From the NCBI GenBank assembly GCA_016789785.1, contig JAEUQE010000183.1, positions 1 through 19,133 on the forward strand: DNA of 19,133 nt, written 5' to 3'. The number at the start of each line of letters is the position of its first letter. The first letter of the stretch is position 1. Origin of the DNA: Bryobacterales bacterium (GTDB taxonomy: Bacteria > Acidobacteriota > Terriglobia > Bryobacterales > Bryobacteraceae). Below the pieces are notes generated by a model. The model ran no database searches. It was not told where the DNA came from and worked only from the letters and a program-made list of their open reading frames with translations. Made by a program: the position numbers and the translations under genes. Positions 11,240-19,133 of the stretch are shown piece after piece.

Positions 11240-11509
11240 ATGTCGGTCGAAGAAGCCATTCTCAATGCTGTACGAGAGCTCCCCGTCGACAAGCAACAGG
11301 AGATCTTGAGCCACGCCACTCGCCTGCGCGATGAGGCTGCCCCGAAGAAGCCATTCCGAAGTATCAAGGGTATCCTGGCGGACCGGGGGATTTCGATTTC
11401 GGATGAGGACATTGACGGGGCGAGGCATGAGATGTGGAAGGACTTCCCGAGGGAAGACATCGGATGGCTGCGGCCCTCGCCGACACTCACACAATCCTCT
11501 GGTAGCTGA
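11240..11509 (+). CDS. VapB-type antitoxin (DUF2281-like) with run-on C-terminus
   Basis: An 89-residue acidic/basic small protein. Residues 1-35 (MSVEEAILNAVRELPVDKQQ, then EILSHATRLRDEAAP) form the helical segment typical of DUF2281-type antitoxins. The C-terminal toxin-binding part has RSIKGILADRGISISDEDID and EMWKDFPREDI. Related antitoxins usually stop directly after FPREDI and overlap the toxin ATG by a base. Here the codon after ATC is GGA (11462-11464) where TGA would give exactly that overlap, and the frame runs on for 15 more residues (GWLRPSPTLTQSSGS) to a TGA at 11507-11509, reading over the toxin start. The expected role is to bind and neutralise the PIN toxin encoded next and to repress the shared promoter. 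The next gene is damaged, so the antitoxin may now be an orphan. Confidence 0.78.
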   Translation: MSVEEAILNAVRELPVDKQQEILSHATRLRDEAAPKKPFRSIKGILADRGISISDEDIDGARHEMWKDFPREDIGWLRPSPTLTQSSGS

Positions 11510-11850
11510 CGGCAGACGCAAGGATCTCACACACCGCCACGGCAATCCTGGACAACGCAACAGCGGCGGGCGATCCCATATTCGTTTCCGCGATCACAAT
11601 GGTGGAGATCCAATACCTTGTCGAAAAGGGACGCCTCAGCGCCGGCGACCAACGAATCGTGCTCTCGGCCGTCGACGATGTTCAGAATCCCGTGCGCCTT
11701 GTACCGGTGGACCGAGCCGTTGTAGACGGGCTACGCCAAGTCAACCGGGATGAAGTTCCCGACATGCCTGACCGAGTGATCGCCGCAGCCGCTGTCGCGT
11801 TTGGTGTACCGCTTCTGAGCCGTGACGGTAAGATCCGCGCGAACCAATAG
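11464..11850 (+). pseudogene. VapC-like PIN-domain toxin interrupted by an in-frame amber codon
   Basis: Reading from ATG 11464 gives a PIN-domain ribonuclease of the VapC type, 128 codons, except that codon 14 is TAG (11503-11505) inside the TILW-x-L motif where relatives commonly have Tyr. All four acidic positions that would hold the catalytic metal are present: D7 (ADTHTILW), E48 (SAITMVEIQYL), D103 (PDMPDRVIAAAAV) and D121 (LLSRDG). The rest of the frame is clean to a TAG at 11848-11850, with no other stop or frameshift. An internal ATG at 11599 (inside ITMVEI) would give only 83 residues without D7. So the toxin is probably a very recent knock-out, or the stop is a sequencing error or is suppressed. 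It overlaps the antitoxin by 46 bases. Confidence 0.82.
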
Positions 11851-11888: not shown

Positions 11889-12086
11889 ATGGAAATGCAA
11901 CTAAACGAGCGAGAAACCTCTCTGTTGAACGCCTTTCGCCGCCTACCTCCAGGCACAGCTACAGAGTTGTCCGCGCTCATCGAGCGACTAGCGGACCTCG
12001 CTCCGAACCATCGGATTGACTGGTCGGATTCCTGGTCCGACGAGGACCTGGACGAGTTTCAGGTCCGCCTCGCTACGACGCTTTGA
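11889..12086 (+). CDS. Small antitoxin-like protein upstream of a PemK/MazF toxin
   Basis: A 65-residue protein I do not recognise as a named family. It begins MEMQLNERETSLLNAFRRLP, has a helical Leu-rich segment (ELSALIERLADLAP) and ends with a Trp/Asp/Glu-rich acidic tail (RIDWSDSWSDEDLDEF). An N-terminal helix-forming part and an acidic, disordered-looking tail are the usual layout of MazE/PemI-type antitoxins, and the next gene is a PemK/MazF toxin 24 bases downstream, so an antitoxin role is inferred from context. CAGGG at 11882-11886 is too close to ATG 11889 (2 bases) but well spaced (8 bases) for the second ATG at 11895, so a 63-residue product is equally likely. Confidence 0.65.
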   Translation: MEMQLNERETSLLNAFRRLPPGTATELSALIERLADLAPNHRIDWSDSWSDEDLDEFQVRLATTL

Positions 12087-12110
12087 AACTGAGGAATCAG
12101 AGGACAAGGA

Positions 12111-12431
12111 TTGAAGCCAGGCGATGTGGTGGTTGGCGTTCTGGTTGGAGCCCACGAAACCAAGGTCCGGCCGGCCGTGGTTGCGAGCGCTACCTACCTC
12201 TCTGAACGTCCGGATGCCGTCGTCGGTATCCTGACCACGAAGTCTCCCAAACCGCCGGGCGCCACGGACTACATCTTGCTCGACTGGGGATTTTCGGGAC
12301 TCCGCGCGCAGCCCTGCTTCCGGGCATGCGTGCTGACCGTCCGCCGGTCAGAGTTGACCGTAATCGGACGTCTGTCCGACCGCGATTGGGAAGCCATCAA
12401 ACGCTGCGTCCGCGCAGCGTTTGCGATTTGA
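12111..12431 (+). CDS. PemK/MazF family toxin (endoribonuclease)
   Basis: A 106-residue protein with the MazF/PemK fold, mRNA interferases that cleave RNA and stop growth when unopposed. Visible family features: the N-terminal MKPGDVVVGVLVGAHETK followed by VRPAVVASATYLS (the conserved R-P-A/V-V strand), a central strand VVGILTTK, then DYILLDWGFSGLRAQPCF resembling the L-x-DW-x-x-A/S-G-L motif of this subgroup, and a closing VIGRLSDRDWEAIKR helix. The start is TTG at 12111: AGAGGA at 12099-12104 is spaced 6 bases before it and there is no ATG nearby. No lesion is seen, so this module, unlike the VapBC pair before it, looks functional. The catalytic residues cannot be confirmed by eye. Confidence 0.83.
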   Translation: MKPGDVVVGVLVGAHETKVRPAVVASATYLSERPDAVVGILTTKSPKPPGATDYILLDWGFSGLRAQPCFRACVLTVRRSELTVIGRLSDRDWEAIKRCVRAAFAI

Positions 12432-14735: not shown

Positions 14736-16652
14736 TCAGCGATCGGCCCCGAGACGATACCCATGACCGCGCACCGTTGCCAGTTGCGCGGATCGTGTCC
14801 CCATCTTCTTCCGTAACGACCGGACCACCACGTCGACAACATTGCTCGACGCGTCCGCCCTCCTGCCCCATATGTGCGCGAGTAACTCCTCGCGGCTTAC
14901 GGCTTTGCCCGCGCGTTCCTGTAAGTGGCGGAGTAACTCGAACTCCAGCGTGGTCAGCGGAACCCGCAGGTTGTCCATCACAAGCTCGCGGGACTCCAAG
15001 TCCAGAATCCCATCCGTTTTCACGCCCAGTTCCTCGGCCACCAGCCCCGTCAGCCACCCGTCCACGGATCCAGGGCCGAAATCAAGCACCGCCAGATGAT
15101 GAGTTACCCCGCCCATCGTCACCGCGGCGCTTTCCACAATCTGGAACCCGAGCCTCTTCGCGGTAGGGCCATAAGCCGCCAGATCGCACAGCGAAAGGTA
15201 GCACCGGCGGAGCCGCGGCCGTAACTCCATGTATGACCGCTTCACGTCGAGCCAGCACGCGGCCTGCACTGGCGAAGGCAATTCCCCATGTTCCGCGCTC
15301 AGCCAGCGGCGCAGAAACACCACCGTCTGTTCCTTGGGAACCGGATGCGTCCGCAGATGACGCCGCCACGCCCGCATCATTGGATCGGCATCCATGCGCG
15401 GCAGTTTGTCATCGCGCAACTCCGCATAAATGTAGAAGCCTGATACCGCGCCCGGCGCGTCGCGCACCACCCGGAACGTCCAGGGCGCCTGTTCCCACCA
15501 ACACCCGAGAATCGCCGCCGCCTCTCCGGTTTCGCACGCACTTCCAATCCCGAGAATGCTCGCGCCATCCGCGGGCCCGGCGGGTTCCACGCTGACCAAC
15601 GGGGACGCCGAGGGGACGAAGGCCTCCCGCACCACAGGGTTTTGCAGCAGAAAGATCATCCCGCTGGTGTAACCCCACATTTGCTCGCGGCTCGCCGACC
15701 GGGCCTCCTCCCGCAGCAGGCGCCACGCGGTCTGCCGGTAGGTCTGGAAACGATGGGGATCGGACACCCGCAGGCTTCCAGCCACCGCATCCCGGACCGC
15801 GTCGTGCACCATCAGCCCTTCGTGCGCGACGTACACGAAACAGGAATCGGCCAGGCGCTCGTAGGTGTCCGCCGGAGCACCCGGTATCATTGCGTTCGCC
15901 AATGACCTTGTGAACCGGTACACCACCGAGGCCGCCTCCAGTGCCGCCCGCGACGCCGGATCCAGTACCGACTCCAGATACAGAGCCGCAAGTTGCCGTA
16001 CCACCGCCTGCGCCGCGCCCTCCTCCATGGCTTCTCCGGAGCGGGTGCCCAGCGCCGCAAGCGCAAGCCTTAGAGCCAGAGGATTGCCTCGCGCGAATCG
16101 GTTCAGACGCTCCGCGTCCGCTTGCCCGATTCCGGACCGCTTCAGCAGTTCCAGAGCATCCTGAACCGGCATCTCCCGAAGCTGCATCACCTTTAGCAGC
16201 CCCTGCCATTCCAGCGCCAGCAGCCAGGCCGCACTCGGCGGATACCGGCTTGCGAACACCAGACGCACAGACTCGCTCAACTCGGGAATGTAGGTCTGAC
16301 GAAGCCAGCCATCAATCAACAAGAACGACTCGTAGGCGTCGATCACCAGCACCAGGCGCTTCGTCGCCCTGCTCGGATCCACGCCACCCAGCGCACGCTG
16401 GAATCCTTCCGGCGTCGGCTCCACAAACCGGCCATCGAGAGCGATCACATCCGCCCCCGCCGCCATCGCCCTCGTCTGAAACTCGCCAAGCAGCGCCGAC
16501 TTGCCGATGCCGGCCATTCCGTGCACCCACGTGACCACGGGACCGCCTTCGTGCAGGCATTGAAGCAACTCCGCGAGTTCTTCCTGGCGTCCGGCGAAGT
16601 TCTGGGATGCCTTGTCCGCCAGGATGTCCTTCACGCGGCGTGCGGTTGCCAT
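14736..16652 (-). CDS. STAND ATPase with GNAT-like middle and C-terminal OmpR-type DNA-binding domain
   Basis: A 638-residue putative signal-responsive regulator. Residues 1-30 are a short lead-in with FAGRQEELAEL, typical of NB-ARC/AAA_16 regions. Walker A is GMAGIGKS (45-52) and Walker B is LVLVIDAYE (100-108), followed by a LVFASRYPP sensor-like strand and a winged-helix/helical part to about 340. Residues about 348-547 resemble a GNAT acetyltransferase fold (FYIYAELRDD, SPVQAACWLDVKRSYMEL, YGPTAKRLGFQI), with no proven activity. Residues 548-638 are an OmpR/PhoB-type winged helix (LTTLEFELLRHLQE, VSREELLAHIWG, VDVVVRSLRKKM, TVRGHGYRLG). ATG 16652 is chosen because a longer start at 16751 would overlap the upstream gene and add unlike sequence. 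The YdhR-like gene ends 10 bases upstream, so the two are likely co-transcribed. Confidence 0.85.
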   Translation of the reverse strand: MATARRVKDILADKASQNFAGRQEELAELLQCLHEGGPVVTWVHGMAGIGKSALLGEFQTRAMAAGADVIALDGRFVEPTPEGFQRALGGVDPSRATKRLVLVIDAYESFLLIDGWLRQTYIPELSESVRLVFASRYPPSAAWLLALEWQGLLKVMQLREMPVQDALELLKRSGIGQADAERLNRFARGNPLALRLALAALGTRSGEAMEEGAAQAVVRQLAALYLESVLDPASRAALEAASVVYRFTRSLANAMIPGAPADTYERLADSCFVYVAHEGLMVHDAVRDAVAGSLRVSDPHRFQTYRQTAWRLLREEARSASREQMWGYTSGMIFLLQNPVVREAFVPSASPLVSVEPAGPADGASILGIGSACETGEAAAILGCWWEQAPWTFRVVRDAPGAVSGFYIYAELRDDKLPRMDADPMMRAWRRHLRTHPVPKEQTVVFLRRWLSAEHGELPSPVQAACWLDVKRSYMELRPRLRRCYLSLCDLAAYGPTAKRLGFQIVESAAVTMGGVTHHLAVLDFGPGSVDGWLTGLVAEELGVKTDGILDLESRELVMDNLRVPLTTLEFELLRHLQERAGKAVSREELLAHIWGRRADASSNVVDVVVRSLRKKMGTRSAQLATVRGHGYRLGADR

Positions 16653-16662
16653 CAGGTTCAGC

Positions 16663-16971
16663 CTACGCGATTCCCCGAGTTTCGCGAGTGGGCTGCTCCA
16701 GGATGCTGAACTCACGCGACACCATGTTCGCCAGATTCGGATGAGTGGCAACGGCCTGATAGAGTGGTGACGCGAGATACGCTTGGAAAGCCTCGCGGTC
16801 CCGCCATGTGTATACGCCGCCGTAGGTATTCGCCGCCGGATCGCTGAGCCACACCTTGGTCAGCAGACCAGGGACGTCCCGGAATGCGGGAGCGAATTGG
16901 GTCTCGCAGGCATGCTCGTATTGAGCCTGCGTGAGCCCGTTCAGTTCAAATGTCACGATTTGGATATGCAT
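16663..16971 (-). CDS. YdhR-like small monooxygenase-fold protein
   Basis: A 102-residue protein with the dimeric ferredoxin-like fold of the YdhR/antibiotic-monooxygenase families. It matches the pattern of E. coli YdhR (101 residues): an N-terminal strand MHIQIVTFELNG, then FAPAFRDVPGLLTKVWL (YdhR has PGFLWKVW), GGVYTWRDREAFQAYL (YdhR has GGIYLF) and a C-terminal VSREFSILEQP strand. Function of YdhR is putative. The start at 16971 is preferred because the upstream in-frame codons to 17031 (MEFSSCSHRMLWFG...) do not fit the fold. It precedes the STAND regulator by 10 bases; a shared promoter in the 103-base gap behind it is likely. No Shine-Dalgarno sequence is evident. Confidence 0.78.
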   Translation of the reverse strand: MHIQIVTFELNGLTQAQYEHACETQFAPAFRDVPGLLTKVWLSDPAANTYGGVYTWRDREAFQAYLASPLYQAVATHPNLANMVSREFSILEQPTRETRGIA

Positions 16972-17550: not shown

Positions 17551-18077
17551 TCAGGACACCCGCCACGGCACCCCAGCCCTCGGCGTTGTTTGCATGTTCA
17601 GCACCAGCGGCGGATTCTCCGGACCGGACAACTGCTTCAGTTTCTGTCTCACGTTCGCCGACGGATCGCGCGGAAACAGCTTCGAAGCGTGGCCAGTGTA
17701 TGGTTCCAAGTGAAGCACGGCAGTGCATCGCAGCGCCGAAAGCACACACGAGGCGTGGGACCGTTCGCGATCATCGGTGGCTCTGGCCGCGGCATCCGCA
17801 AGTCCCTCGCGCGTGTCCGCGATTTTGCGGCGGAAATCCTCAACAATTTCACTCGGCGTGAAATCCTTGGGCTCACCCTGCATCTTGCGATAGTCCTTGA
17901 GCTCGATCATCCACGACTGCCCAGGGCAAAGGCCCATCTCTACCGCCACCACATCAACGGCCCTCTTGCCTTGGTTCTTCCGCTGAAACTCCTTGTAGTG
18001 AACCCATTCGTCATACTTTCAGCGGCGACGTTCGGATCGAAATGGAACTGAAGCGTGTCAACTTGTAGTGTGGCCAA
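17551..18077 (-). pseudogene. PD-(D/E)xK-like protein broken by a one-base frameshift
   Basis: Read from TTG 18077, the first 20 residues are MATLQVDTLQFHFDPNVAAE; the frame then goes to a stop at 17940-17942. In the -1 frame the protein continues as KYDEWVHYKEFQRKNQGKRA and ends ...VPWRVS at 17551. The junction reads GCT GAA AG TAT GAC; one extra A (GAAAAG) would restore a smooth 175-residue protein. VDVVAVE (D42) and WMIELKDYR (E59-x-K61) form a D-x16-E-x-K signature of restriction-type nucleases, so a DNA- or RNA-cleaving role is inferred. The remaining, helical part (EIVEDFRRKIADTREGLADA) and a C-terminal beta segment (VLHLEPYTG) give no family name. It follows the AAA ATPase by 21 bases. 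A deletion or a homopolymer sequencing error is equally possible. Confidence 0.75.
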
Positions 18078-18098
18078 GGCAGGTCGGTTCCCGTTCGA

Positions 18099-19133
18099 TC
18101 AAGATATTTCCATCAAGTTCATTTCCGTCGCGATGTACCGGCCGGACTGTTCCAACTCCTCGTCCAATACGGCGATGTTGCCGATCTCGTCCATCGACTC
18201 ACCCTGATGTAAATCCACGCCATCGCCGTTCAGCCGCAGTCCGAAACACCTCGTATCCAAGCCGGGAAACTCTCGCTGCTGGAGGATATGCAACTCGCGA
18301 AGCAGAAACAGACTGTGCGACGCGATGAAAACCTGGATCCCGTTCTGCGCCACGGACAGGATGGTCTTCGCGACGGTCTTGATGGCGCGCGGATTGAGAT
18401 TCGCTTCAGGCTCGTCCCAGAACAGGTATCCGGTGTCCAACAGCGACCCGGTCGCGATCAAGCGCGCAACCATCGCCAGCTTGCGTAAGCCTTCCGCCAC
18501 CAGATGCATCTCCATCCTGCCGGAGTCCAGAATCAGGTAGAATCGGCCGGTCGCGTCCACGTCCACCTTTCCTCCCATCGCCTGCTCCAAGGGCTGCAAC
18601 AACTGATGAATCCGCGCTTCACGCGGTCCGCGCGCCAGGGGTGCCTCCAGCAGAATGCAGGTGTCACGCCATGTCTCCTCAAACGGGAGATGCGTGGTTT
18701 CGTACAACGAGACAAAGCCCGGGGCAATCGTGAGTAACTCGCGCGTCGGAAGGTATGCTGGCCGCTTGCCGACTCTGCTTTCTGGCATGACACCCATCTT
18801 CACCTTCGATAGAGTGCTGAACGTGAGATCGAAGTCCAGTGCGCGCGCATCGAACTGATAGCGGATCTGGCACTTGCTCCGCCCTCGGGCGCGGCGCACC
18901 AGCCTACCAAGCGCATCTGGACGAAACACTCCGAGGAACTTCTCTCCGGCCGCTGCCGCAAGTGCGGCCTTGGATTGAGCATCATTCGCGCCATCGCGCG
19001 CTCGTGCCGCACTGACGGCGATCCCGCAATAGGCGGCCTTGAGGATGTGCGTTTTGCCAGTCCCGTTCTCGCCGGCGATGATGTTCAGATGCCTTCCAAA
19101 TCGCAGGTCAGCTTCATTGAAGACTGTGAAGTT
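18099..19133 (-). CDS. RecF/SMC-like AAA ATPase (AAA_21/AAA_15 type), 5' partial
   Basis: 344 residues are visible and the frame runs off the right edge, so the start lies outside the window. Since the first visible residues (NFTVFNEADLRFGRHLNIIA) look like the usual N-terminal strand of this ATPase class, probably only about ten residues are missing. ATP-binding elements: Walker A IAGENGTGKT (about 19-28), an ABC-type signature-like AEGLRKLAMVA, Walker B YLFWDEPEANLNP with catalytic Glu and D-loop, and the H-switch IASHSLFLLREL. The insert between these lacks a long coiled coil, so it is not a true SMC; it belongs with OLD/RecF-like stand-alone ATPases found in phage-defence gene pairs. A GTG at 18929 is internal, not the start. 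It is followed 21 bases later by the PD-(D/E)xK-like gene, and the two form one unit. Confidence 0.88.
   Translation of the reverse strand, partial: NFTVFNEADLRFGRHLNIIAGENGTGKTHILKAAYCGIAVSAARARDGANDAQSKAALAAAAGEKFLGVFRPDALGRLVRRARGRSKCQIRYQFDARALDFDLTFSTLSKVKMGVMPESRVGKRPAYLPTRELLTIAPGFVSLYETTHLPFEETWRDTCILLEAPLARGPREARIHQLLQPLEQAMGGKVDVDATGRFYLILDSGRMEMHLVAEGLRKLAMVARLIATGSLLDTGYLFWDEPEANLNPRAIKTVAKTILSVAQNGIQVFIASHSLFLLRELHILQQREFPGLDTRCFGLRLNGDGVDLHQGESMDEIGNIAVLDEELEQSGRYIATEMNLMEIS

Follow-up and report, generated by a model that had tools for sequence, protein, structure and literature searches.

A damaged copy of the candidate defence system HEC-02 in a Bryobacterales contig: an SMC/Rad50/PtuA-like ATPase and a PD-(D/E)xK-like protein

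The DNA examined here (the window) is a stretch of 19,133 nucleotides from a Bryobacterales bacterium (contig JAEUQE010000183.1, assembly GCA_016789785.1). Near its end lie two adjacent minus-strand genes, one encoding an ATPase and the other a small PD-(D/E)xK-like protein, and by sequence comparison these are a copy of the catalogued candidate system HEC-02. The abbreviation HEC, for “Hma-embedded candidate”, comes from a 2024 preprint (Payne et al., 10.1101/2024.01.29.577857), as cited in PMC12988326. The features of the pair are listed below, with the small protein numbered after an intact sibling, P0001.

18099..19133, minus: ATPase open reading frame, HEC-02 ATPase subunit; 344 amino acids, open at the window edge, stop at 18099
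19050..19073, minus: Walker A, GENGTGKT, residues 21-28; G21, N23, G26 and K27 in 36/36 ATPases
18480..18497, minus: signature-like motif, AEGLRK, residues 213-218; E214 and G215 in 36/36, R217 in 34/36, K218 in 35/36
18390..18425, minus: Walker B and D-loop region, LFWDEPEANLNP, residues 237-248; conserved in 36 ATPases
18315..18317, minus: switch histidine H273; 36/36 ATPases
18018..18077, minus: small gene, N-terminal piece; TTG start, in agreement with the start of intact relatives
17551..18018, minus: small gene, C-terminal piece in another frame, predicted PD-(D/E)xK-like effector; PADLOC match and 16 database relatives
17953..17955, minus: predicted catalytic aspartate D42; 66/66 relatives
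17896..17904, minus: E59-L-K61 of the D...E-x-K motif; E59 in 66/66 and K61 in 64/66 relatives

The two proteins and their predicted active sites

The upstream gene encodes an ATPase of the ABC/SMC type, resembling SMC, Rad50 and PtuA. Measured against a 359-residue relative (locus L001), eight N-terminal residues fall beyond the window edge. A protein database places this ATPase on a single contig of 19133 bases, which suggests that the window is the complete contig and that the truncation is simply the contig end. Pfam AAA_21 matches the protein (E 4.6e-15), and the full set of ABC motifs is present, comprising Walker A, the signature-like motif, Walker B (D240-E241-P242, catalytic glutamate included) and the switch histidine. 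The initial annotation had read the same complete set from the letters, and its reading is borne out by an alignment of 36 ATPases, in which the key positions are kept in 34 to 36 sequences and D240, E241, P242, E243, N245, L246 and P248 are identical throughout. This alignment consists of the window protein and those from 35 of the 38 related loci described below, leaving aside L014, which has no ATPase, and the broken L026 and L035. The structural model is a compact head without long coiled coils, in which a C-terminal helix (residues 331-356 in the L001 protein) is predicted with low confidence. Its top Foldseek match is Septu PtuAB (E 2.8e-15), and Rad50 and SMC heads fit it as well as PtuA does; a sequence search against solved structures returned three weak matches, all retron/AAA ATPase chains.

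Downstream on the same strand, the small gene has its first in-frame TTG 21 bases past the ATPase stop, the spacing originally noted, and a single frame change near position 18,018 splits it into two frames. The intact sibling P0001, 89% identical across the searched C-terminal part, has the 175 residues, D42, E59 and K61 that had been proposed for the window protein, with the same numbers. The D...E-x-K motif is likewise upheld: in a first count of 66 relatives (65 distinct sequences), D and E occur in 66/66 and K in 64/66. That count omitted eight of the 38 loci (L006, L007, L014, L025, L026, L027, L032 and L035) and nine of 29 loci from a reverse search with the ATPase. When 11 sequences were added, broken ones included (those eight together with L044, L045 and L047), E was found in 77/77, K in 75/77 and D in 75/77, both D exceptions being gaps in broken copies; the repeat seed loci L039, L046 and L048, and L049, L051 and L060, which are without an intact small gene, stayed outside both counts. 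Judged from these alignments, the motif is real and no chance occurrence. Two further positions stand out, namely K85, which is invariant (66/66) and lies in the helix that follows the strands of the active site, and D23, a nearly invariant acidic position (D in 61/66, E in 2/66) just ahead of the first helix.

The model of P0001 displays a confident PD-(D/E)xK-like core built of helix 26-34, strand 43-47, strand 54-62, helix 75-99 and strand 117-125, with D42 placed immediately before strand 43-47, and E59 and K61 within strand 54-62. The comparison with PD-(D/E)xK nucleases that the initial annotation had called for thus came out in its favour as regards the predicted core and less so as regards solved structures, the matches to which are weak. 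Many of the nearest solved folds are DNA nucleases, among them FokI, BspD6I and a repair endonuclease from Pyrococcus. By sequence, the effector profile matched no solved structure (E<=10), and there was no effector match in a viral structure library (E<=0.001). The small-gene piece belongs to no Pfam (E<=0.1) or NCBIfam (E<=1) family at these cut-offs, and its 16 database relatives gave only scattered Pfam matches, at E 0.079 or worse. A nuclease identity for the small protein is well supported by the motif and the predicted core, and less by the solved folds.

A co-inherited pair that matches HEC-02

An alignment search with the small protein recovered 38 loci in 37 genomes, distributed among Acidobacteria, Verrucomicrobia, Planctomycetota, cyanobacteria, Bacteroidetes, Chlorobaculum, several proteobacterial groups, Actinobacteria and a spirochaete. 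In 37 of the 38 the ATPase gene is the one directly upstream. Only L014 departs from this: its small gene is partial, and nothing in its genome, which is reconstructed and perhaps incomplete, matches the ATPase. The spacing ranges from a 4-base overlap to 26 bases in 29 of the 37 paired loci, the figure for the other eight being distorted by longest-frame starts or breaks. In the reverse direction, a search of three phyla (ATPase E<=1e-60, seed genomes included) found the ATPase in 4/297, 7/292 and 17/398 genomes, at 29 loci in all. Among the strict matches (E<=1e-100) the small gene is adjacent in 12 of 13, four of the 13 being seed loci found again; the one without it, L051, sits on a plasmid beside an N-6 DNA methylase. 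Thirteen of the 16 weaker ATPases are accompanied by a weakly matching small gene (E 5e-7 to 0.003 in this small set); inspection by eye found a 169-residue open reading frame with E-x-K at L041, only a C-terminal remnant at L060, and at L049 a cut ATPase and no small gene. Across 30 loci the pairwise identities of the two proteins are correlated with r 0.885, against values of 0.38 or lower in 2000 permutations, a correlation that leaves shared species ancestry in. The pair is a conserved, co-inherited unit, and of the two results that could have told against the initial proposal, a structure without the nuclease core and a lack of conserved pairing, neither was found.

As to mobile elements, two records in a plasmid collection carry the small protein, and two loci turned up in viral contigs, each having the ATPase gene upstream; one of these loci is cut off within the small gene. 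Phage records gave no match, and E. coli genomes gave no DNA match to a Pseudomonas copy. The plasmid ATPase of L051, from Sulfuricystis multivorans (also recorded as L087, 9617-10645), is a HEC-02-type ATPase standing alone, 112 bases from the convergent methylase gene. A nuclease-ATPase fusion at this locus was considered and rejected: nothing in its long frame matches the small gene, and only an ATPase is present in the plasmid record. In the genome of a Candidatus Parabeggiatoa (G036, loci L036 and L038) the HEC-02 ATPase model has 13 matches, pieces among them, compared with at most two in any other genome of the set of 37.

Both window proteins match HEC-02 models in PADLOC-DB (version 2023). 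The ATPase is covered across nearly the whole of PDLC04146 (HEC-02B; E 8.9e-139, residues 1-336 on model positions 9-342 of 344), and the C-terminal piece, at 17554-17952, matches PDLC04145 (HEC-02A; E 3.2e-16, model positions 52-168 of 170), as do P0001 (E 1.1e-26) and all 16 database relatives. The window pair also qualifies by adjacency on one strand, judged by gene order in relatives. In four of the 37 genomes (G004, G005, G007 and G030) the pair sits between HmaB and HmaC on one contig, with HmaB matched only at its end in G007. At two of these loci, L030 from Acidovorax and L004 from Verrucomicrobia, Septu PtuA and PtuB lie just upstream of the pair with its flanking HmaB and HmaC matches. 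Because of the model matches and of these relatives between HmaB and HmaC, the family is assigned to the catalogued HEC-02. The window copy differs from its relatives in having a split small gene and in not being seen within Hma, the window stopping at the ATPase with the upstream side cut off; downstream of the pair are glyoxalase-like and ydhR-like genes.

The initial annotation had offered the pair as a candidate undescribed two-gene defence system, not recognizing it as a named one. The claim of an undescribed system is ruled out, since PADLOC already lists HEC-02 with models for both proteins and relatives reside inside Hma. The window locus is a further, damaged copy of HEC-02 and, as a single locus, ordinary. 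In the literature searched, no report of HEC-02 activity was found, and the name itself appeared only in a nano-silver paper, other HECs occurring in defence papers: PMC12988326 describes several HECs as active and names HEC-06, not HEC-02, and HEC-05 and HEC-06 are mentioned in PMC11411939. The term HEC was not found within two PADLOC papers or PMC13092281. PADLOC-DB does not use the HEC-02 labels A and B uniformly: they trade places from one branch to another (PDLC04145 and PDLC04146 versus several in the range PDLC04213-PDLC04229), and in a distant pair, L063, the ATPase best matches a model named HEC-02A and the small protein one named HEC-02B. Swapped labels of this kind could mislead automated counts.

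A proposed Septu-like reading of HEC-02 and its rivals

Several known systems invite comparison. Septu PtuA/PtuB and the PtuAB of retron Ec78 share with HEC-02 the ATPase head fold and the order of an ATPase gene followed by a nuclease gene, the latter also visible in the Septu genes at L030 and L004. They differ in that the Septu effector is HNH and the one here is PD-(D/E)xK-like, and in that the ATPase here is shorter; PtuA models match the window ATPase weakly (best E 8e-8, against 8.9e-139 for HEC-02B), and PtuB models match neither the small piece (E<=1) nor any of the 16 relatives (E<=0.01). PARIS, with AriA and AriB, is a two-gene layout of ATPase and nuclease. AriA models match the window ATPase weakly (E 1.4e-17), and AriB, the TOPRIM effector of PARIS, matched neither the effector nor the 16 relatives in PADLOC model scans. 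The first reading of the effector as neither HNH nor TOPRIM agrees with this lack of matches to models of either kind. A precedent for the pairing itself is provided by some Lamassu systems, which according to PMC10586767 combine an SMC-like ATPase with a PD-(D/E)xK effector, LmuA. The same paper gives Lamassu an LmuB with coiled coils and an additional LmuC, whereas the ATPase here is a compact head and the HEC-02 loci looked at contain no conserved third gene.

The interpretation starts from what the present analysis showed: the genes are paired and inherited together, folds are predicted for both proteins, and each active site is conserved. With a probability of about two in three, the pair is HEC-02 acting as a Septu-like two-part defence in which an ATPase gate would control a PD-(D/E)xK nuclease that cuts nucleic acid. 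The first protein would be a compact ATPase head of the SMC/Rad50/PtuA type, without long coiled coils, that dimerizes or oligomerizes through Walker A, the signature and the D-loop, and the second a minimal single-domain PD-(D/E)xK nuclease that the ATPase keeps inactive. A phage-linked trigger, such as a nucleotide change, a DNA end or a replication structure, would release the nuclease, which would then cut nucleic acid; on the grounds of the predicted fold, the substrate would most likely be DNA. The gate is proposed by analogy with Septu, in which defence depends on the PtuA Walker motifs as well as on the PtuB HNH motif (PMC13096335). Complex formation, the trigger, the substrate and an anti-phage outcome are inferences, and a defence role of HEC-02 is plausible. 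More tentatively, and with chances slightly below even, HEC-02 may be a Septu-like sensor-nuclease machine whose HNH effector has been replaced by a minimal stand-alone PD-(D/E)xK nuclease with K85 and D23, and one PtuA/Rad50-type gate would therefore accept unrelated nuclease folds.

The association with defence islands that the initial annotation had asked about is real in some loci and weak overall. When 83 neighbours from 14 of the 38 loci (84 were planned, one being excluded as a piece of the pair itself) were compared with 82 control genes elsewhere in the same 14 genomes at PADLOC E<=1e-40, the neighbours matched 38 PADLOC families, through at least six proteins of which four come from the Hma locus L030, and the controls matched none. 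This enrichment is not relied upon, because ten neighbours from six loci, scanned singly, gave one match only, to a desaturase model, which is taken as spurious.

A serious rival, even if an improbable one, holds that the same two proteins cut RNA, for example tRNA, and so halt the growth of the infected cell. It owes its seriousness to Septu Ec B88 and retron-Eco7, which target tRNA-Tyr according to PMC13096335 and PMC11555353, and to the resemblance of the HEC-02 ATPase to PtuA. The same sources have other PtuAB systems acting on DNA or sparing tRNA (PMC11555353 for the evidence against an RNA target), and the effector core is PD-(D/E)xK-like. The DNA nucleases among its nearest solved folds speak against RNA as well. 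Much further from likely is that the pair, in the manner of Rad50-Mre11, serves DNA repair or DNA maintenance in place of defence. The ATPase is matched equally well by PtuA and by Rad50 and SMC heads, and the combination of ATPase with nuclease is also the design of Rad50-Mre11 (PMC10586767), but such a role sits poorly with a presence as rare and patchy as the genome counts given above, with the location inside Hma beside Septu in two loci, with plasmid copies and recurring broken copies, and with an ATPase model that has no long coiled coils.

No mechanism for HEC-02 was found in the literature searched, and the Septu-like reading proposed here may be unreported. For a candidate defence system that is widespread, both components now have predicted folds and active sites. 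If a PtuA-like gate is indeed coupled to a restriction-type nuclease, then HNH, TOPRIM and PD-(D/E)xK effectors have all been combined with related ATPases, and comparing the ATPases linked to each would reveal what the shared ATPase senses.

State of the window copy and its other genes

With its nuclease gene split, the window copy would yield no whole nuclease if the frame change is genuine; the copy is probably either inactive or carrying a sequence error. Relative to L001, differences at the three codon positions stand at 0.22/0.13/0.58 in the ATPase and 0.33/0.31/0.61 in the C-terminal piece, where the third-position excess is weaker. It follows from this excess that both genes were constrained until not long ago, the small one less tightly. 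For the window copy alone, and compatibly with the best explanation of the family, it is conceivable, although we would lean somewhat the other way, that the pair is decaying, with a real frame change and an ATPase that is a remnant. The split small gene would fit such decay, as would the other broken or partial copies (L006, L014, L026, L027, L032 and L035) and the lone ATPase of L051; the third-position excess in the ATPase, and to a lesser degree in the C-terminal piece, argues for the opposite, as does the likelihood that the window is an assembled contig in full, since assemblies contain single-base errors. The broken and partial copies are found in reconstructed genomes and cultured strains alike, and as L032 and L035 come from cultured strains, such copies are unlikely all to be assembly errors.

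Elsewhere in the window are two toxin-antitoxin-like pairs on the plus strand. One, at 11240-11850, consists of a PIN-like gene (Pfam PIN E 2.6e-4, under the cut-off) following a DUF2281-like gene (E 0.021), and the other, at 11889-12431, of a PemK/MazF-like gene (E 3.2e-5) following a 65-residue open reading frame without a match. On the minus strand, at 14736-16751, is a 671-residue protein that combines an AAA_16/STAND-like NTPase region with a C-terminal Trans_reg_C DNA-binding domain.
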